The notes under the pieces were generated by a model. It saw nothing but the letters and a program-made list of their open reading frames with translations, ran no database searches and had not been told where the DNA came from. The position numbers and the translations under genes are program-made. Shown here piece after piece: positions 1,116 through 47,554 of a stretch of DNA of 64,000 nucleotides; the first letter of the stretch is position 1; every line of letters starts with the position of its first letter. The stretch covers positions 186,001 through 250,000 of the forward strand of contig NC_021169.1 of assembly GCF_000385565.1 (NCBI RefSeq), given 5' to 3'. Origin of the DNA: Archaeoglobus sulfaticallidus PM70-1. Its GTDB lineage: Archaea; Halobacteriota; Archaeoglobi; Archaeoglobales; Archaeoglobaceae.

Positions 1116-3434
1116 GTCGAGGGTTTTCTGCTCGGCCTCTCCCTTAACTACTCCATCGGTATATCCGAATCTCTCAAGAATTCTCATAACAGATGGCAGA
1201 ATTTGGTTCTCGATGTAGTATTCCTTGTCTATCCTGTAAACTCCACCATCACTGCCCCGGATTATCTCCCCATCAAAGCTCTCGATCAGATCGTAAGGAT
1301 ATGCTCTATCACCTATATTTCCTGCACCCCTAACGATAACATAGCCAACCTTGGATCCAACGCTGTAATGGATCCCCATCTTCTCAGCCCTCATCGCAGC
1401 CTTAACATGTGCCTGAACGCTCTCGTACCTCGATATCTTCCTCGTTATGCTCTTGTATATTACATACTCCTCTATCCCAAAGCTGCCGGAGTTTATCTTC
1501 TCAATCACACTCTTAACAGTCTTCAGAGCTTTCTCAGGATCTCTCTCTTTCAAAAGTATCTCGATAACCATTTTCTGAACCTTTTTAGCCAGTTCACACC
1601 AGTCTCCTCTCCTGACCTCCAGACCCTTTACAATTATCCTGCCATCCTCAGTATATCCAGCATACCTCTTCTTCTCAACGAAAAATATGGTCTTGTAATA
1701 CTCATCAACCTCGATCTGTATCGGCAGCTCTTCAGACAATTTCATTATCAGCCTTTTAACCTCTGCCCTCATCTCATCAATACTCAATCCATCTTTTTTG
1801 ACGAATATGGAGTCCGTATCTCCATAAAGCACCGTGAATCCCATGTTCCTTGCAATCTCCGCAGATTTTTTGATGAAGTGTCTGCCCCATGCTGTTGTAG
1901 CCTCTGCACACTCCCTGCAGTACCATCTCGCCATGTTCCATCCGGTATAACCATAGAAAGAGTTCGTCAGGACTTTAAGAGCCTGCTGTCTGATATCAAG
2001 CACCCTGTAGTCTGGAGAGTTGTAGTCAAGAGTTTTCATTATCTTCTTTATCTCTTTTCTCTTGCCGATGAGCATCTTCAGAATTCTCTTGAAGAAGCCA
2101 TCCGGAGACTTCAAAAATCTGTGTCCAACCTCCGGAGCAGTATGGCAATCACATGGACCCTTTGCAAGTGTATCGGGACTTATGTTAAAGGCTATCATTA
2201 TGGAGGGATACATGGATGCGAAGTCCAGACAGACAACATTCTCATGCAAGCCTCTCTCTGGCTCAAGCACGAAAGCCCCTTCATAGGGCTGTGAAATTTC
2301 CGCAGGATTCGGTGCTATCTCCCCGAGCTTGTAAGCCTCGTTCAGCAAGAGCCAGTCCACCTGCTTCCCCCTACCCATTCTCGTAACATCATCAAGCGGG
2401 ATTCTGATCATCTTGGATAGTTCGTAATACATCGGAAGCAGTTCCTCGGCTATGTAGTACGTATGCAGCACATCCTGCAAAGAGTAGTTCAGAACGTCCT
2501 TTCTCTTTCCTTCCTTCCATCTCTTAGCTATATCCTTCGCAGTAATATCTGCAATCTCTATTCTCTTCCCTAGAAATTCCGCAACATTCTCGAGTTTCTT
2601 GACTTTCACATCGATAGTTCGCAAAACGATGTCATACAAATCGACATTCAGCCTTCCTGCAATCTTTGGATTCCCTCTGAGGGTTAACTCACTTCCATCT
2701 CTGCCAAGGTCGAGCTTTATTCCAAGCTTAGTTGCTCTTTTTTTGAGATATGGAAGATCAAAGGAGTTCTGATTGTATCCAACAATTATATCAGGATCTA
2801 TTTCTTTAACAACCTGAACGAACCTTTTGATTACTTCCCTCTCATTGTCCCCATTAATTATCTCCTCGTAATCTCCGGATTTTACCCCTATGACGATTAT
2901 GGGATCCCTTTCAGGATCCGGCATTCCAAAGCTGGAGAGCATCTCGCAATCAAAAGCCATTATCTTTAGATCCGGATATCCATTCTCCCTCACCCTCTCG
3001 ACACTCTCCACCTCAAACTCCCTGAAGTTTTTACCAACTAGCTTACCGGACAAAGCTATACCATCAAAACAGGCCAGATCCTTGTCTATCAGATATCTGT
3101 ATACAAAGGGTATGTCCGCTTCTCTAACATCAGCGAATTTCGAAATGCTCTCCCTGAGCTTAGGAACATGCTGAGGGTGTTTTGCAAAAACCTTGAAAAC
3201 ATCCTTTTCCTTACCTAAAATCTTTCTCTTTACTCTCTCAATTCGCTCAACAGCTATCGTCTTTTTTCCGTCCTCAACCTTAACATACGGCTCATAGTCA
3301 GATATAACATAGAAATATGGTTCAAATGTGCGATCGTACGCGACAAAAACGCCATCGCTATCCTTACACCACATTCTGACTACAGCCTTCTCGTTTTTGG
3401 TTATGTAATCTATGTCGATCAGCCAAGCTTTCAT
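1104..3434 (-). CDS. polB: family B DNA polymerase with PIP-box tail
   Basis: This is a replicative archaeal family B polymerase of 776 residues from the start used here. The 3'-5' exonuclease motifs are FDCEM (D162/E164), YNQNSFD (220-226) and YSLQD (317-321). Polymerase motifs are DFASMYPSI (D404), KVLTNSFYG (motif B) and YGDTDS (537-542, motif C). The last eight residues, QKTLDSFF, form a PCNA-interacting PIP box. An upstream in-frame ATG at 3446 would add four residues, but the TATA-like element TATAAA (3459-3464) lies about 27 nt from 3434 and only 15 from 3446. Its 3' end overlaps the convergent decarboxylase-family gene. Confidence 0.95.
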   Translation of the reverse strand: MKAWLIDIDYITKNEKAVVRMWCKDSDGVFVAYDRTFEPYFYVISDYEPYVKVEDGKKTIAVERIERVKRKILGKEKDVFKVFAKHPQHVPKLRESISKFADVREADIPFVYRYLIDKDLACFDGIALSGKLVGKNFREFEVESVERVRENGYPDLKIMAFDCEMLSSFGMPDPERDPIIVIGVKSGDYEEIINGDNEREVIKRFVQVVKEIDPDIIVGYNQNSFDLPYLKKRATKLGIKLDLGRDGSELTLRGNPKIAGRLNVDLYDIVLRTIDVKVKKLENVAEFLGKRIEIADITAKDIAKRWKEGKRKDVLNYSLQDVLHTYYIAEELLPMYYELSKMIRIPLDDVTRMGRGKQVDWLLLNEAYKLGEIAPNPAEISQPYEGAFVLEPERGLHENVVCLDFASMYPSIMIAFNISPDTLAKGPCDCHTAPEVGHRFLKSPDGFFKRILKMLIGKRKEIKKIMKTLDYNSPDYRVLDIRQQALKVLTNSFYGYTGWNMARWYCRECAEATTAWGRHFIKKSAEIARNMGFTVLYGDTDSIFVKKDGLSIDEMRAEVKRLIMKLSEELPIQIEVDEYYKTIFFVEKKRYAGYTEDGRIIVKGLEVRRGDWCELAKKVQKMVIEILLKERDPEKALKTVKSVIEKINSGSFGIEEYVIYKSITRKISRYESVQAHVKAAMRAEKMGIHYSVGSKVGYVIVRGAGNIGDRAYPYDLIESFDGEIIRGSDGGVYRIDKEYYIENQILPSVMRILERFGYTDGVVKGEAEQKTLDSFF

Positions 3435-3502
3435 TTTTACATCCATGGCTTTCTAACTATTTATACTTTGATGACCGAATTTTAACGATTTTGAAAAAAC
3501 CA

Positions 3503-3546
3503 AGAAAAGTTTATATACCATAAGGTCGGACTTTTAATTGAGGTGG
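3503..3546 (+). promoter_or_regulatory. promoter and ribosome binding site of the sulfur operon
   Basis: An A-rich BRE-like stretch runs into TTTATATA (3510-3517). A strong GAGGTGG Shine-Dalgarno sequence (about 3540-3546) precedes the ATG at 3552. This unusually clear combination argues that the DsrE-like gene heads a leadered operon. Confidence 0.6.
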
Positions 3547-3551
3547 TAAGA

Positions 3552-3941
3552 ATGGGAAAACTTGCGATAGTTCTTGCAAGTGGTGAGCTTGAGAAGCTTC
3601 AGGCTGCGAGCATAATCGGTAGTGTAGCCGCAACGCTTGGCACTGAGGTGCTCGTTTTCGCAACGATGGATGGATTAATGGCTTTTAAGAAAGATGTGGT
3701 AGAAAAGAAGGCCTGGAAGGCTGGTGAACTTGGTAAGGGAATGCTACAGGCTAATGCACCGCTTTTCATAGACACATTCAAACAGGCGAAAGAAACTGGG
3801 AATTTAAAGCTCTATGCCTGCGGAATGGTCATGGACATGCTCGGTTTGAGCATGGATGAATTTGTGGATGTCTTCGATGACAAGCTCGGGGTTACAGCAT
3901 TTCTCGGCATGACTGAAGGTGCTCAGGTTCTCTTCATATGA
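3552..3941 (+). CDS. DsrE/DsrF-like sulfur-relay protein
   Basis: The 129-residue product has the DsrE-like fold pattern: an N-terminal beta strand (KLAIVLASG) followed by helices, and a conserved cysteine at position 90 in LKLYACGMVMDMLG. Family members carry or pass sulfane sulfur, usually with TusA-type partners. The ATG at 3552 is preferred over a GTG at 3543 because GAGGTGG lies at the right distance. It is the first gene of the operon followed by tusA-like, SQR-like and DUF1641-like genes, which strongly implies a sulfur role. The exact substrate is unknown; this is not one of the DsrEFH trimer subunits by context, since no dsr genes lie nearby. Confidence 0.8.
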   Translation: MGKLAIVLASGELEKLQAASIIGSVAATLGTEVLVFATMDGLMAFKKDVVEKKAWKAGELGKGMLQANAPLFIDTFKQAKETGNLKLYACGMVMDMLGLSMDEFVDVFDDKLGVTAFLGMTEGAQVLFI

Positions 3942-3951
3942 GGTGGTCGAG

Positions 3952-39573: not shown

Positions 39574-39912
39574 GTGCATGAAATGAGCTTTGCATCAGCC
39601 ATAGTTGAGAACGCGCTAAAGCTTGCCGAAAAGCATAACGCTAAGAAGGTTAATTCCATAACAGTAATAGTGGGTGAGCTTTTACTCATAAACCCGGATC
39701 AGCTTGAGTTCTGCTACAGTGTTGCGAGCAAGGGAACTATTCTTGAGAACTCGAAGCTGATAATCGAGGTTTCAAAAGCCGAGATAAAATGCGTTAATTG
39801 CGGTGAGAGGTACGATTCTCCCATATACCTATGTGAGAAATGCGGTGGTTTTGTTTCCGTAAACGGTGGGAAGGATATGATTCTCAAAAAAATCGAGATG
39901 GAGGGGAATTAG
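39574..39912 (+). CDS. hypA: hydrogenase maturation nickel chaperone HypA
   Basis: The 112-residue protein binds nickel through the N-terminal MHE and carries a structural zinc site with two CxxC motifs, CVNCGERYDSPIYLCEKCGG. The start is GTG at 39574, which restores the essential second-position His; an ATG at 39583 would lose it. It delivers nickel to hydrogenase with HypB, which follows directly. The TATA-like element lies about 25-28 nt upstream. Confidence 0.95.
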   Translation: MHEMSFASAIVENALKLAEKHNAKKVNSITVIVGELLLINPDQLEFCYSVASKGTILENSKLIIEVSKAEIKCVNCGERYDSPIYLCEKCGGFVSVNGGKDMILKKIEMEGN

Positions 39913-40560
39913 ATGCACAGAATCGAGATCGATGCTGAAATGGATTTGCTCTCAGAAAATAAGAGACTTGCCGAGAAAAACAGGGAGTACCTAAAGAGCA
40001 AGGGCATAACTGCGATAAACATCATGGGTGCCATAGGCTCTGGAAAGACGCTGCTGATAGAGAAAACCTTGCAGAGTGTTGACTACAGGGTTGGAGTTAT
40101 TCTGGGCGATGTCATATGCAAGGCTGATTACGAGAGGGTTAAAAAATACGATGTCAGTGTTGAGCCAATAAACACCGGCAAGGAATGTCACTTAGACGCT
40201 CACCTGATAAGCCATGTGATTCAGTCCTTCAGCGATGTGGATCTCATCCTGATCGAGAATGTTGGAAACCTCGTATGCCCGGTGGATTTCGATCTTGGAG
40301 AGGATTACAGGGTTGTGATGGTCAGCGTAACTGAGGGGGATGATGTTGTGGAGAAGCATCCGGAGATATTCAGGCTTGCTGATGTGATAATAATCAACAA
40401 GATAGATCTGGCTGAGGCTGTTGAGGCAGATGTCGATAAGATGGTAAGGGACGCAAAAAGGATAAATGGTTCAGCGAGGATCATAAAGATGGATCTCAAG
40501 TCAGGGAAGGGATTTGATGAGTGGCTGGAGTTTTTGAGAGATGCTGTGAAGGTGAGGTAA
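39913..40560 (+). CDS. hypB: hydrogenase nickel incorporation GTPase HypB
   Basis: The 215-residue GTPase has Walker A MGAIGSGKT, ENVGNLVCPVDFDLG with the metal-binding Cys, and NKIDLAE (G4). It lacks the poly-His nickel-storage tail of some bacterial HypB; the N-terminus is only mildly charged. It starts on the base after the hypA stop. It energises nickel insertion into [NiFe] hydrogenase. Confidence 0.96.
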   Translation: MHRIEIDAEMDLLSENKRLAEKNREYLKSKGITAINIMGAIGSGKTLLIEKTLQSVDYRVGVILGDVICKADYERVKKYDVSVEPINTGKECHLDAHLISHVIQSFSDVDLILIENVGNLVCPVDFDLGEDYRVVMVSVTEGDDVVEKHPEIFRLADVIIINKIDLAEAVEADVDKMVRDAKRINGSARIIKMDLKSGKGFDEWLEFLRDAVKVR

Positions 40561-40785
40561 ATGTGTCTGGCTATTCCGGCTGAGGTCGAGGAGGTAAATT
40601 TTCCCATCGCGATAGTGAATTTTGGAGGGACCAGGAAGGAGGTCAGAATAGATCTGCTGCCGGATGTGAGGGTTGGCGACTATGTTCTCGTCCATGTGGG
40701 ATATGCCATTCAGAAGGTTGATGTGAAGGAAGTTGAAGAGCTTGCAGCAATATATCAAAAACTTCAGGAAGAAGGGATTTTATGA
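40561..40785 (+). CDS. hypC: hydrogenase assembly chaperone HypC
   Basis: The 74-residue protein starts MCLAIP, where the N-terminal Cys2 holds the Fe(CN)2CO unit with HypD. The rest is the small OB-type barrel (VRVGDYVLVHVGYAIQKV). It starts directly after hypB and overlaps hypD by 4 nt. Length is typical of the HypC/HupF family. Confidence 0.95.
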   Translation: MCLAIPAEVEEVNFPIAIVNFGGTRKEVRIDLLPDVRVGDYVLVHVGYAIQKVDVKEVEELAAIYQKLQEEGIL

Positions 40786-41855
40786 ACAAAAAAGAGCTTA
40801 TTTCCAAAATATCTGAGAAGATTCACGAAGAGGCCAAAGACGCTGGAAAGATAAAGATAATGCACCTTTGCGGAACCCATGAGGATACGATAACGAAATA
40901 CAACCTCCGTTCTCTGCTCCCAGACAACATAAAGCTCCTCAGTGGCCCGGGATGTCCGGTTTGCATAATCCCGGATGAGGATCTTCAGAAGGTCTTTCAC
41001 CTGATTGAGAAAGAAAATATCATATTCACCACCTTTGGTGATATGGCGAGAGTTCCGCACAACGGCAAATCTCTCTTCTACTACAAGGCGAAAGGATATG
41101 ACATAAGAATCGTTTACAGCATATTCGATGCCATCAAGATCGCCAGAAACTCTAGCAGGACTGTTGTTCACTTCGGTATAGGGTTCGAAACCACGATGCC
41201 GTCAACAGCTTTAGCAATCCTGGATGCTCCTGAAAACTTCTGCGTTTTCAGCTCCCACAGGTACTTCATACCGGCGATGGAGCATCTGATATCGTTGGGG
41301 GTTGAAGTTAACGGGTTCATAAATCCCGGACATGTCTCAACCATCACAGGAATTAAAGCATATGAGAAAATAAAGAAGTACGGCATCCCTCAGATAATCT
41401 CCGGCTTCGAGCCGGAAGATGTTATGCTGAGCATTTTAAAACTGATCAAAGCTATAAAGCGAGGTGATGCGGAGGTTTTCAACGAGTACACGAGGGCCGT
41501 GACCTACGACGGAAATGTTATGGCTCAGAAGGTCATGGATGATGTCTTTTCGGTTGATGACTGGGAGTGGAGGGGATTAGGAGTTGTTCCGAGGTCAGGA
41601 GCTGTGATCAAGGAGGAATACAGCGAGTTCGATGTTGTTAAAGTTTTTGAGGATGCCTTCAGCGATTTTGTTCCGGTGGAGGATAAGGCCAAAAAGGCAT
41701 GCAGATGTGGAGATGTGCTAAGGGGGATAATCACACCTTTAGATTGTCCGCTTTTCAACAAGAGGTGTACACCCAAAGACCCTGTTGGCGCGTGCATGGT
41801 GAGTTTCGAGGGGACATGCAATATCTGGGCTAAATTTGGTGTTGAAAGAAATTAG
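40782..41855 (+). CDS. hypD: hydrogenase maturation protein HypD
   Basis: The 357-residue Fe-S protein assembles the Fe(CN)2CO group with HypC and HypE. Conserved blocks are MHLCGTHEDTITKY, GPGCPVCIIPDED, GFEPEDVM and the C-terminal cysteine set (CRCGDVLRG, DCPLFNKRC, CTPKDPVGACMVS), which binds the [4Fe-4S] cluster. It closes the hypABCD operon; no hydrogenase structural gene is next to it in this window. Confidence 0.96.
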   Translation: MNKKELISKISEKIHEEAKDAGKIKIMHLCGTHEDTITKYNLRSLLPDNIKLLSGPGCPVCIIPDEDLQKVFHLIEKENIIFTTFGDMARVPHNGKSLFYYKAKGYDIRIVYSIFDAIKIARNSSRTVVHFGIGFETTMPSTALAILDAPENFCVFSSHRYFIPAMEHLISLGVEVNGFINPGHVSTITGIKAYEKIKKYGIPQIISGFEPEDVMLSILKLIKAIKRGDAEVFNEYTRAVTYDGNVMAQKVMDDVFSVDDWEWRGLGVVPRSGAVIKEEYSEFDVVKVFEDAFSDFVPVEDKAKKACRCGDVLRGIITPLDCPLFNKRCTPKDPVGACMVSFEGTCNIWAKFGVERN

Positions 41856-42499
41856 ACAGTATTTTTTATCTCAAACTCACATACCTCATCTCCCGTTCCC
41901 CAGCATTTTACCTCCTTAACCAAGTATCTCTTTCCAGTTTTACCCAACAAAATTCCTTCAATTATCCCTTCATCCGTCTTACAGTAAGTGTCATTAATGT
42001 TGGGCAAATCTCTGCACATGTAGCAATCCTCAACGACAAAAGAGTTTGGAGTTATCTCTACAACCTTCCCAAGCCTTAATTTCTCCCATAAATCAGCAAT
42101 ACCTTCATATGTTTCTCCTTCCACCTTATCCGCAAGGAGAAAATAACCAATATCGAGTCCAATTTTCCTAAGAAAAATTTTATTTTCCAGATTTAACAAA
42201 GTAAACGATCGCAGTAAAGCCCTTAGAAATTCACGGTTAGATAATCTAAAACCCTTAAAAACCTCCTGAGGAAGTAGTTGGTTTGGAGTGTTTAAGGTTG
42301 AAATGTAGTATTTTTTGATAAAATTCCTCTCAATTTCGGTTTTTACAACTTTTACCAGTTTCAACTCTGAAAGGATTTTAAGATGATGAGATATTGTAGA
42401 TTTAGATAAGCCAAGTGTTTTTGCAATTTCGGTTGTTGTCTTAGGTTTATCCAGTATTTCAAGGATCTTCAATCTGGTTTCATCTAATTCTCTAAGCAT
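41852..42499 (-). CDS. HTH regulator with C-terminal V4R-type domain
   Basis: The 215-residue protein has an N-terminal ArsR-like winged helix (TTEIAKTLGLSKSTISHHLK, about 17-36). The second half resembles the V4R ligand-binding domain, with five cysteines in YMCRDLP, YCKTDEG, VKCWGTGDEVCEFE, possibly a metal or redox site. It is divergent from rubrerythrin and lies upstream of cydAA', suggesting an oxygen- or metal-responsive regulator. The palindrome at 42518-42532 overlaps its own TATA element. It converges on hypD with a 4-nt overlap. Confidence 0.75.
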   Translation of the reverse strand: MLRELDETRLKILEILDKPKTTTEIAKTLGLSKSTISHHLKILSELKLVKVVKTEIERNFIKKYYISTLNTPNQLLPQEVFKGFRLSNREFLRALLRSFTLLNLENKIFLRKIGLDIGYFLLADKVEGETYEGIADLWEKLRLGKVVEITPNSFVVEDCYMCRDLPNINDTYCKTDEGIIEGILLGKTGKRYLVKEVKCWGTGDEVCEFEIKNTV

Positions 42500-42532: not shown

Positions 42533-42591
42533 TTGGTTCGAAACATATCAAACCGTAAGATTTATATTGAACAGAGAACAGATATCCAAGC

Positions 42592-43014
42592 ATGGTAGAG
42601 TATGGTGAAAACAGGAACAGGATAGGTGTGACAAAAGGCACAGAGATCGAAGAAGCTGTGACGAATGAGTTCAGAGGAGAGACAATGGAAGTTGGATTGT
42701 ATCTGGCAATGGCAAGACAGGCTGAAAGAGAGGGTTATCCGGAGATCGCCAGAGTTTTGAGGGACATTGCAATGGATGAAGCTTATCACGCATCAAGATT
42801 TGCTGAGCTGAACGGCATGATAAAGGATACCCTTAAAGAGAGTTTGGAATACATGCTTGAGGGTGAAAGGAAAGCAAATGTACATAAGAGGAAGATTGCA
42901 GTTAAAGCCAAAGAACTCGGACTCGATGAGGCCCACGACATATGGGATGAGGCATCAAGAGATGAGTACAGGCACGCAGAGGCTCTGAAAGGTTTATTAG
43001 AAAGATACTTCTAA
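42592..43014 (+). CDS. rubrerythrin-like ferritin-fold protein
   Basis: The 140-residue four-helix protein has di-iron ligands in [14 protein letters not shown] (Glu about 26-30), [10 protein letters not shown], and DEYRHAE near the C-terminus. The rubredoxin-like domain of classical rubrerythrins is absent, as in short sulerythrin-type forms. Such proteins reduce peroxide in anaerobes. It precedes the cytochrome bd-type genes by 25 bp and may share their promoter, consistent with an oxygen-defence unit. Confidence 0.87.
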
Positions 43015-43039: not shown

Positions 43040-44560
43040 ATGCTGGATCAGTGGCTTTCCAGCTATCCTGCCGGATACGATAGAGTTCTTTCGATGATCG
43101 GTATCGAAATCCACTGGATAATCCTGCAGTACATTCTCGGTCTGTCTCTGTTAGCTGTTGTTGCTGAGGTAATATGGCTGAAAACGAAAAAAGAGGAGTG
43201 GGCTAAGATTTCAAGAACGATAGCGAAGGGTTTCATCATAGTTTTCGCAGTTGGTGCAGCAATGGGGACTGCTTCAGAGTTTGGCTTAGTTTTGCTATGG
43301 CCAAATCTGATTGAAGCTGCTGGCAGATACATCTATTTCCCGCTGTATGCTGAGATATTCGCTTTTCTGATGGAAGTCATTTTCATCTACATGTTCTGGT
43401 ACGCGTGGAAAAAGCTGCCTACAAAGGCACACATTGTTGTGGGTATCCTTGCGATAACAGGAGCCTGGTTTTCAGCCTCGATGATAATGAGTGTAAACAG
43501 TTACATGCAGGCCCCTCCGGGAATAATTCCCGCTTACGATAATGGCTGGAGGTTTGATGAGGGTTATCCAAAGCTAACACTCTTCGTTCCAAATGAAATA
43601 GTGTCAGCGTTAGATGTTGAAGTTTTACAATCTCTCGGAACGGATGTGCTGGGTAAAACGGACAACAGTGTGATCGTTGCCCTTCCGGTTTCGATTGTGA
43701 AACAGCTTATCTCTGACGCGTTCAGCGGTAAAACCGTTGGCGAGAGTTTGCTATATGTGGCATTAACAGATGCTGCAAAGAACTCTCTCAAAGATGTGCC
43801 CGCTCTGAATGTTGTTGATGCAATCGTTGCGAATACCGTAAAGGAGGTTGGGGTCTATACAGTAACATTCAAATCTCCAACCTACTTCGCTTCCCTTCTC
43901 CATACACTGTTTGCAGCGATAACCGTTTCATCATTCACGGTTGCTGGAGGTTATGCATTATCATACTCAAGAAAGAATGTGAAGCACGCAAAGCTCGGTT
44001 TGAAGTATGGGCTGTACTTCGCAATAGCATCTCTCGCATTTCAGGGAATTGTCACAGGGCATGAGATGGGCGTGGCTGTTGCGGAATGGAATCCTGAAAA
44101 ATTCGCTGCCATGGAAGCAAACACACCAGCATTTCTCGAAAGGATAGTAGCATATCTGTCCTATGGAAATTTCAATGCAGAGATTCCAGACTACTACCAG
44201 ATACCGGATGATCTCAGACCTCCACTCCTGATTCATTACCTGTACTATGTAAAAATCACCGTTGCAGCAGTTCTCGGGATAATGGCGCTCTTAGCAGCAT
44301 ACATGCTTTACAGAGATAGAGAGGTGTCCTACGGCTACCTGATTATCCTTCCAATAGTTGCACAGGTTGTCAGCTTTCTCGGCTGGGCTGTGAGGGAGAT
44401 CGGAAGAAAACCTTGGACGATATACGGAGTCATGGATGTTGGTACTGCCCATACGATCAACCCCCCTACTCTCGGAGAAGCAGCGATAATATCGCTCTAC
44501 TTCGTTGGGATTCTCGCTGTCCTAACATACTCGACATATAAATTCCTGTGGAGGGGGTAG
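43040..44560 (+). CDS. cydA: cytochrome bd-type oxidase subunit I, archaeal CydAA' type
   Basis: The 506-residue membrane subunit has CydA marks: H25 (IEIHWIIL), E104/E112, H288 (SLLHTLFAA) and GWAVREIGRKPW (448-459). A Q-loop-like stretch with K354 and E360 (EWNPEKFAAMEANTP) suggests quinol binding. At the site of the usual heme b558 Met ligand I read KIT (Thr407). An insert of about 110 residues (160-280) lies between two helices, far longer than in E. coli. It is followed 1 bp later by a second CydA paralog, not CydB. It reduces oxygen with quinol electrons. Confidence 0.85.
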   Translation: MLDQWLSSYPAGYDRVLSMIGIEIHWIILQYILGLSLLAVVAEVIWLKTKKEEWAKISRTIAKGFIIVFAVGAAMGTASEFGLVLLWPNLIEAAGRYIYFPLYAEIFAFLMEVIFIYMFWYAWKKLPTKAHIVVGILAITGAWFSASMIMSVNSYMQAPPGIIPAYDNGWRFDEGYPKLTLFVPNEIVSALDVEVLQSLGTDVLGKTDNSVIVALPVSIVKQLISDAFSGKTVGESLLYVALTDAAKNSLKDVPALNVVDAIVANTVKEVGVYTVTFKSPTYFASLLHTLFAAITVSSFTVAGGYALSYSRKNVKHAKLGLKYGLYFAIASLAFQGIVTGHEMGVAVAEWNPEKFAAMEANTPAFLERIVAYLSYGNFNAEIPDYYQIPDDLRPPLLIHYLYYVKITVAAVLGIMALLAAYMLYRDREVSYGYLIILPIVAQVVSFLGWAVREIGRKPWTIYGVMDVGTAHTINPPTLGEAAIISLYFVGILAVLTYSTYKFLWRG

Positions 44561-44561
44561 G

Positions 44562-45728
44562 ATGATACTCTACTTCCTAGCCTTAGTTTTTGGACTGCAT
44601 ATAGTGCTAGTCAACCTCGGTATTGCCTTCTCAACAGCCATACCTCTGCTCAAAAGAAGGGGCGAGAAAGAGGGTAACTATGCATACATAAAAACTTCAA
44701 AGCAGCTTATGAACTTCTATGCTGCCACATACGCACTTGGAGGTGTTTTCGGCACAGCATTTACTGTATTTCTGCTGAGTTTCTATCCATCCTTCATAGG
44801 ACTTGCCGGACATCTAACATTCGTTCCATTCGGGCTTGCTGTGCTGGCGATAGTGCTTCACTTCTTCGCAATCACAGCCTACTGGTACGGGTGGGACAGA
44901 TGGAGTAGTGATGTGCATTATACCTTAGGCCTGATTTTGCTCGTATCGGTGTATCTAATCCCGATTGGCTTTAGAGCTGTCTCTGCCTTCTTAAATGTAC
45001 CTGAAGGGTTGATACTGACACCAAAACCACATCTCGATGTCATTGCAGCATTTCTGAATCCAACCTTCCTGCCATTGTACTTGAAGAGCATTACAGCAGC
45101 TCTGGCTACCGGTTTCTTTACGATTTCCTCGGCGTACATGCTGAAATACGGCAGAGGAGAGAACGAGGCAATTGAGATCGTCAACAAGTTCATGCCCCTA
45201 GCAGCCATAGCATTCATAGCAACCCTCGTGCTTGGAGCTGTTTATGCAGAGGTGCTCAACATCTATGTGAACTACAAATTCAGCAATGCTTTCGGTGCTC
45301 TGGTTGGTGCAAACGCGAAGTACGATTTCAGCTGGCTTTTCACCATAAAAGTTGTCATGTTCGTGATACAGGCTCTGGCAATCATAGCTTTCCTGAAGAT
45401 CAGAAAGAATCCGGGATATAGCAGGGCAATAGTGCTCGCCGGGCCCGCCTCAATGATAGCAATTTTTGCCGGGGAGATGCTGAATTCATTCAGCCAGTAT
45501 CCATACTTCGTTGCAAAGCTTGGAGATGATGCTTTCGTTTCAAGCATCCCAGAACCAATAAGGACTTTTCTTGCTGAAAGGCTGAGTCTCGAGCTATCAA
45601 ACCCGCTGGCAACATCTTACGAGCTGTATATCATAACGCTGGTCTTCCTTGTACCCTTACTGATCTCAGCATGTGTTTTCCTGTATCTGCTACTGTTCGG
45701 CAGGGAGGTTTCAGAAGTTCCGGAGTAA
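44562..45728 (+). CDS. cytochrome bd-type oxidase paralogous subunit CydA'
   Basis: The 388-residue polytopic protein resembles a second, shorter CydA-type subunit rather than CydB. The N-terminal His13 (FGLHIVLVNLG) matches the heme-ligand His of subunit I, and LNPTFLPLYLKSITAALATG fits the second heme-ligand helix without its His. The GWxxxExGR motif and Q-loop are missing, so it likely lost the quinol site. Archaea use such CydA-CydA' pairs. It starts 1 bp after cydA and is cotranscribed. Confidence 0.8.
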   Translation: MILYFLALVFGLHIVLVNLGIAFSTAIPLLKRRGEKEGNYAYIKTSKQLMNFYAATYALGGVFGTAFTVFLLSFYPSFIGLAGHLTFVPFGLAVLAIVLHFFAITAYWYGWDRWSSDVHYTLGLILLVSVYLIPIGFRAVSAFLNVPEGLILTPKPHLDVIAAFLNPTFLPLYLKSITAALATGFFTISSAYMLKYGRGENEAIEIVNKFMPLAAIAFIATLVLGAVYAEVLNIYVNYKFSNAFGALVGANAKYDFSWLFTIKVVMFVIQALAIIAFLKIRKNPGYSRAIVLAGPASMIAIFAGEMLNSFSQYPYFVAKLGDDAFVSSIPEPIRTFLAERLSLELSNPLATSYELYIITLVFLVPLLISACVFLYLLLFGREVSEVPE

Positions 45729-46903: not shown

Positions 46904-47434
46904 CTAATCAAGTTTCTTTAGATAACTGATCAGGTCATTCAAGTCTCGCTCACCCATCTGCCATCTCGGCATACAGTAGTTTAGTGTCTCATTTTCATGA
47001 ACTCCTTTTGTTATGGCAGTTTTTATCTCATCCTCGCTCATTCCTTCCTCTACCAAGGCAGAGTATCTAATGTCTGGGGATTTTTCATCGCACATCATTG
47101 GTACAAAACCGCCTGTACCGTCTCTCCCATGGCAGTTTACACAGCTACCGCCATGAACTCTTAACCAAGTTGGACCACCGGTAAATGGAATTCTCTCTCC
47201 CTCATCGTTGATGCCCGTGTAGTATATCCTCTCACCGTTTGATTCAAAACTTACTGGTCCCTGACAGCATCCTGGCGGATAGTATCTTCCATCCCCATAA
47301 CCTGAACCCATAGGACCCATTTGACTGCGTTGATCATAACCTAAATGCCCCTCAAACAACATGGAATATAGGAACAAACCCAACAAAACTCCCAACACTG
47401 AACCTACTACAATGTAAATGCCATACCGTCCCAT
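46904..47434 (-). CDS. membrane-anchored monoheme cytochrome c
   Basis: The 176-residue protein has an N-terminal membrane helix (about 4-26) and one heme site CVNCH (C98, C101, H102). A class-I cytochrome c pattern ends with YCMPRWQMGERDLNDLISYLK, offering an axial Met. The linker GPMGSGYGDGRYYPPGCCQGP is Gly-rich with two extra Cys. The start at 47434 is favoured because TATATT lies about 26 nt upstream. It likely faces outside and passes electrons, perhaps in copper or iron metabolism given the next genes. Confidence 0.85.
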   Translation of the reverse strand: MGRYGIYIVVGSVLGVLLGLFLYSMLFEGHLGYDQRSQMGPMGSGYGDGRYYPPGCCQGPVSFESNGERIYYTGINDEGERIPFTGGPTWLRVHGGSCVNCHGRDGTGGFVPMMCDEKSPDIRYSALVEEGMSEDEIKTAITKGVHENETLNYCMPRWQMGERDLNDLISYLKKLD

Positions 47435-47554
47435 ACTTTTATTAAACATTGTGTAATATAAAAAATTTACCAAAAAATTTAAATTTTTGTGAAATATCAT
47501 ATGCGAAAAAAATTGGGGGAATAATGTTAAATATTATTGAAAATAATTAGATTT

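Follow-up and report, generated by a model that had tools for sequence, protein, structure and literature searches.

The window analysed here is the whole 64,000-nucleotide stretch of the Archaeoglobus sulfaticallidus PM70-1 genome (GC content 43.3%); the genome itself is one contig of 2,076,931 bp and 99.87% complete. The genes and features of the locus, in window coordinates, are as follows.

41852 to 42499, minus strand: gene for an MsvR-like regulator with an ArsR-type HTH and a V4R domain (V4R 2e-17, HTH_5 4e-13), divergent from the likely operon
42535 to 42554, no strand: operator-like inverted repeat GGTTCGA-N6-TCAAACC (GGTTCGAAACATATCAAACC), between the regulator gene and rbr
42561 to 42568, plus strand: TATA-like box (TTTATATT); the start codon of rbr follows about 27 bp downstream
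42592 to 43014, plus strand: rbr, rubrerythrin-like diiron protein of 140 aa (PF02915, E 4e-14), first gene of the likely operon
43040 to 44560, plus strand: cydA, predicted catalytic, heme-bearing subunit of 506 aa, CydAA' subtype d (PF01654, 225 bits; key residues kept)
43526 to 43888, plus strand: insertion of about 120 aa (cydA residues 163-283) between TM4 and TM5, predicted extracytoplasmic and conserved across subtype d
44252 to 44254, plus strand: AAA codon of Lys405, at the axial-ligand position of heme b558 (E. coli Met393), an alignment column with K, M and H only
44562 to 45728, plus strand: cydA', CydA-derived partner subunit of 388 aa without the catalytic glutamates (PF01654, 81 bits; CydA' clade; Foldseek)

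Identity of the second subunit

The open reading frames place the TAG stop codon of cydA at 44558-44560 and the ATG of cydA' at 44562, leaving 1 bp between the two genes. The GGAGGGGG stretch near the 3' end of cydA, just before cydA', could provide cydA' with a ribosome binding site. Two CydA-type genes 1 bp apart had been proposed in the original prediction; indeed, both reading frames lie exactly where it placed them, and both products match PF01654 (E 1.3e-66 for CydA and 6.3e-23 for CydA') well above the cut-off of 26.2 bits. The genome holds no other PF01654 match. The euryarchaeal anaerobe named there as the setting also fits the organism. The predicted lack of a CydA-CydB arrangement was likewise confirmed, as CydB (PF02322) is absent from the genome when searched with a limit as loose as E <= 1, and heme-copper oxidase (PF00115) was not found in the genome.

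The cydAB-like gene order and size of the pair would also suit an ordinary CydAB oxidase with a very divergent CydB as the second gene product. CydA and CydB have a common fold, and the AlphaFold model of CydA' (mean pLDDT 75.6) does match CydB chains in Foldseek (best E 2e-5, TM 0.53-0.64); its matches to solved CydA chains are nevertheless better (best E 5e-11, TM 0.69-0.80). In a Pfam profile search, neither CydA nor CydA' matched any CydB family, and the PDB matches of both are CydA chains. Profile comparison with hhalign aligned CydA' to the CydA profile at 97% probability and gave no match to E. coli CydB (probability 0.4), and the equivalent of H19 is present in 52/52 CydA' sequences where the alignment covers it (H13 in the window). 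A 106-sequence tree unites the 50 CydA' (that of the window and 49 other archaeal ones) in one clade (SH-aLRT 99), separate from all CydA. A divergent CydB is thus ruled out by profile, fold and tree, and we regard that reading as exceedingly improbable. The grouping of the second subunit with CydB, named at the outset as the result that would speak against the prediction, was not seen, since all three approaches point to CydA. With paired CydA-family genes, no CydB in the genome, and a second product within the archaeal CydA' clade, the assignment of the second subunit as CydA' and of the pair as CydAA' is supported.

Heme ligands, quinol site and inserted domain

The first subunit had been credited with both the GWxxxExGR motif and the quinol site. 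The motif is present (GWAVREIGRKPW, with E453), and window CydA retains, in E. coli numbering, H19, E99, E107, S140, N148, H186, K252, E257, W441, E445 and R448. For the quinol residues the claim held only in part: K252 and E257 are kept as K354 and E359, but Q249 is replaced by N351 and R391 by Y403. By contrast, and as predicted, the alignment shows that the second subunit lacks both GWxxxExGR and E257; E99, E107 and E445 are gone as well. These losses recur across CydA' sequences, with E99 replaced by Ala or Ser and E74 by Thr (57/57 each), no Glu at 107, and E445 missing from 56/57. Four residues ahead of the E445 position lies an invariant Glu (57/57; E305 in the window). Through its invariant His, CydA' may possibly hold a fourth, extra heme. 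Many CydA' proteins carry Lys at both b558-ligand positions. A genome search for the heme synthase AhbD (TIGR04545) returned radical-SAM matches that were all below the cut-off (best 243.8 against 500 bits).

In E. coli, heme b558 is ligated by His186 and Met393, the latter being the sixth ligand (PMC6853902), and these His/Met ligands have been reviewed as conserved in bd oxidase structures (PMC8951039). Window CydA keeps the former as H288 and has Lys405 in place of the latter. Across 70 CydA sequences, a count that leaves out the aberrant haloarchaeal CydA-like protein L040 with its Leu, column 393 holds Lys in 39, Met in 28 and His in three and no other residue, whereas columns 392 and 395 of the same sequences hold eight to nine residue types each. 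The three sequences with His393, a separate Thermoproteota group, carry Met at 186, so that the His/Met pair is swapped. A ligand-supplying column should show just such a restriction to Lys, Met and His, together with a reciprocal Met186/His393 group. Lys405 is probably a ligand of heme b558, forming a His288/Lys405 pair, since all three residues accepted at this position are able to coordinate iron. At the loci of the swapped group (L139-L141; for example, L140:2595-4025), the gene following the Met186/His393 cydA encodes a product of about 354 aa with no Pfam family match.

A second site accompanies the first. Lys393 occurs with Lys449 in 39/39 sequences, giving GRKPW in place of GRQPW next to the conserved R448. 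At least three switches between Lys and Met are forced by strongly supported branches of a tree built without columns 393 and 449, and position 449 follows 393 in 3/3 independent pairs (p 0.25, too few for significance). This constant pairing beside R448 may instead be electrostatic or structural, and Lys is a rare heme ligand; it is therefore quite possible that Lys405 does not ligate iron at all, leaving b558 five-coordinate or otherwise ligated and the lysine engaged in a salt bridge or in proton release near the propionates. The main rival to ligation is a salt bridge of Lys405 with R448/K449. Against it stand the confinement of the column to iron-ligating residues between variable flanking columns and the swapped His/Met pair of the other group. 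The AlphaFold model of CydA (pLDDT 51) is too poor for the K405-H288 geometry, although its best Foldseek matches are still bd CydA (E ~1e-3).

Returning to ligation by lysine, we regard as about evenly balanced the broader proposal that a thermophilic-archaeal branch of bd oxidases, that of the window included, uses a His/Lys-ligated b558. In this branch Met and Lys would have replaced each other three times or more, the residue after Arg448 changing with them on every occasion, and a His/Met-swapped group would be its sister. Within the literature searched, to which Murali et al. 2021 is external, no description of Lys at the b558 ligand position was found. Archaeal CydAA' would break the His/Met rule in an orderly way, with only ligand-capable residues and a coupled second site. 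If true, this provides a natural series for the study of how the entry heme is tuned, and single substitutions in a thermostable enzyme make such tuning of the electron-entry heme directly testable.

Electrons probably reach this heme from menaquinol, a donor suggested by K354 and E359 and by a proposal made for A. fulgidus (PMC3949148). In recent E. coli structures, K252 and E257 seem to stabilise the Q-loop instead of lining the quinol pocket (PMC13189123); the residue argument for menaquinol is therefore indirect. The Q-loop of window CydA is short: the E257 and M393 positions are separated by 46 residues, versus 136 in E. coli. Several close Archaeoglobaceae (the g2, g6 and g8 genomes) have Leu in place of E257, which weakens the case for a quinol site. 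Such degraded Q-loops in relatives would fit another donor, such as a c-type carrier or electrons derived from CO, and cooS (TIGR01702) lies immediately before cydA at loci L143 and L144. Window CydA itself, however, retains K354 and E359, and no cooS adjoins cydAA' in the window; a donor other than menaquinol is accordingly judged quite unlikely here. At those two loci, which belong to two Archaeoglobaceae genera (L143:1881-3683 and L144:1873-3645), cooS is directly 5' of cydA, perhaps as a CODH-CydAA' operon, and a divergent MsvR-like gene lies upstream. Near the oxidase genes of the window, the minus-strand gene at 46904-47500 encodes a possible electron carrier, which has a single cytochrome c domain (PF13442, CxxCH) and is hydrophobic over a stretch at its N-terminus.

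Subtype d CydA proteins also share the insertion between TM4 and TM5, found in 33/33 members examined with 28 conserved positions. Neither Pfam, searched at E 10, nor the PDB profiles gave a match to it. Its residues 181-260 are modelled mostly at pLDDT 59-83 as mixed alpha/beta structure within the otherwise poor AlphaFold model. By analogy with the topology of E. coli CydA, the insertion would sit on the outer face beside the Q-loop.

Genomic neighbourhood and distribution

The rubrerythrin-like gene ends 25 bp upstream of cydA and is probably co-transcribed with cydAA'. A homologue with 84-94% identity flanks cydAA' at three further loci (L004, L005 and L142; inverted in L142). For the divergent gene at 41852-42499, the best NCBIfam match is NF053755 (MsvR; E 3e-30), with a score of 105.7 bits against a cut-off of 220; hence the gene is called MsvR-like and is not assigned as MsvR. 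Homologues of this gene occur near cydAA' at L005, L142, L143, L144, L147 and L155. Outside Archaeoglobaceae, cydAA' adjoins neither a rubrerythrin nor a regulator gene at the loci that were read, so the link of the oxidase with these neighbours is lineage-specific. Just upstream of the MsvR-like gene, at 39574-41855, open reading frame translations reveal hypA, hypB, hypC and hypD-like hydrogenase maturation genes.

In Methanothermobacter thermautotrophicus, msvR is divergent from the oxidative-stress operon of fpaA, and MsvR controls this operon for an O2-reducing F420H2 oxidase (PMC3729527). The window shares this layout of a divergent regulator, whose target would be rbr-cydA-cydA'. Between them, the operator-like repeat in its form GGTTNGA-N6-TCNAACC is matched exactly just once in the whole 2.08 Mb genome, at this site; in L005 and L142 the orthologous genes are preceded by the pattern as well. 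The conserved repeat includes TTNG-N8-CNAA, a mere resemblance to the MsvR box; the exact box, TTCGN6-10CGAA, occurs in the window twice, less often than expected by chance, and both sites lie outside the operon promoter. The spacing of the TATA-like box from the rbr start codon suggests that the operon mRNA may be leaderless.

The survey of the pair's distribution took in 394 genomes from the phylum of the window, 55 from its family and 398 from Thermoproteota, and about 50 loci were read in detail for gene context. In every case examined, a non-canonical archaeal CydA has a neighbouring CydA' encoded on the same strand. The CydA and CydA' trees show the same three-way split into subtypes b, c and d; these mirrored splits indicate a single ancient duplication, after which the two genes would have been inherited together. 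Subtype d comprises the window, other Archaeoglobaceae, Pyrodictiaceae, Acidilobaceae and further Thermoproteota. Subtype c includes genome G449, which we take to be Caldivirga maquilingensis, and subtype b includes G117, presumably A. fulgidus with its genes AF2296/AF2297. In A. fulgidus, AF2296 and AF2297 are adjacent and both named cydA (PMC3949148). The original prediction had CydAA' as a type found only in archaea; a scan of genome contigs, with a reach of close relatives, yielded archaea only among its matches.

Among the 55 Archaeoglobaceae genomes, 18 contain a CydA match and 37 contain none; those with a match have subtype d or b, never both in one genome. Four further near-complete genomes of the window's genus gave no match, and a fifth (G283, locus L005) has a damaged copy. 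At positions 1257-3951 of that locus (L005/L154), cydAA' carries several 1-bp indels, and the adjacent genes for rubrerythrin and the MsvR-like protein are intact. This looks like gene decay; the source is a MAG, in which assembly error is possible.

Proposed role and relation to known systems

From gene order, homology, residues, synteny and the conserved repeat, we infer activity, electron donor, heme content, Lys ligation and role. Taken together, the locus very probably encodes a CydAA' menaquinol:O2 reductase that has CydA' in place of CydB, that probably has a b558 held by His288/Lys405, and that would remove O2 along with rubrerythrin under the MsvR-like regulator. CydA would bear the heme centres, with electrons from menaquinol entering at the outer face, and CydA', a decayed CydA paralog, would serve as the structural partner that CydB is elsewhere. 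The complex is predicted to reduce O2 to water, most likely for the removal of trace O2 in a strict anaerobe, while the co-encoded rubrerythrin would remove peroxide and the divergent, putatively redox-sensing regulator would control rbr-cydA-cydA'. An oxygen-scavenging unit with rubrerythrin had been foreseen originally; the divergent MsvR-like gene and the conserved synteny strengthen that suggestion, the rest of which is inference. For Archaeoglobales, the operon is a candidate unit of redox-controlled oxygen defence, and it comes with a specific putative operator.

The catalytic glutamates of CydA are intact, as would also be expected of a respiratory, energy-conserving terminal oxidase that enables microaerobic growth. 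The A. fulgidus pair, for which a menaquinol-to-O2 role was proposed, is highly expressed in all anaerobic conditions tested (PMC3949148), a level that may favour the same view. On the other hand, Archaeoglobus neptunius did not grow at 0.5-5% O2 (PMC8322695), a comparison made by genus and not by presence of cydAA'. The many family genomes without a CydA match and the frameshifted copy in the same genus look like those of a dispensable defence trait, and the operon layout is of the redox-stress type. A respiratory function is thus rather unlikely, and oxygen defence remains the preferred role.

Archaeal CydAA' itself is already known, and an Archaeoglobus pair was noticed in 2014; new beyond the literature searched are, provisionally, the Lys/Met/His pattern, the inserted domain, and the arrangement of MsvR-like gene, rubrerythrin gene and operator. 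Murali, Gennis and Hemp reportedly described the archaeal CydAA' (qOR4a) in the ISME Journal in 2021, and the Caldivirga maquilingensis enzyme is said to contain b hemes only. The window resembles C. maquilingensis CydAA', as reportedly described, in its adjacent CydA paralogs, the lack of CydB, and quinol and active-site residues that lie in CydA and not in CydA'. Unlike the window protein, the CydA of G449 (presumably C. maquilingensis) has Met at 393, Ala in place of W441 and no insertion of about 120 aa, and it belongs to subtype c. Because the two subtypes differ, the b-heme-only result cannot simply be carried over to the window enzyme. AF2296/AF2297 of A. fulgidus also form a CydA-CydA' pair, in the same archaeal family and with Lys at 393 and 449; they represent another subtype, however, with a CydA' about 31% identical to that of the window and no long insertion.

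The name CydAA' has also been given to OR-N enzymes of Nitrospinota and Nitrospirales, a proposed CydA-type pair described as lacking a quinol site and probably using cytochrome c as donor (PMC10839748, PMC12342949). Unlike these, window CydA retains K252/E257 (K354 and E359). With the CydAB of E. coli bd-I and G. thermodenitrificans, the window shares the CydA fold, the ligands H19, E99, E107, H186 and E445, the proton-path residues and the GR(Q/K)PW motif. It departs from canonical CydAB in having CydA' for CydB, Lys for Met393, and a CydA with a short Q-loop and the TM4-TM5 insertion.
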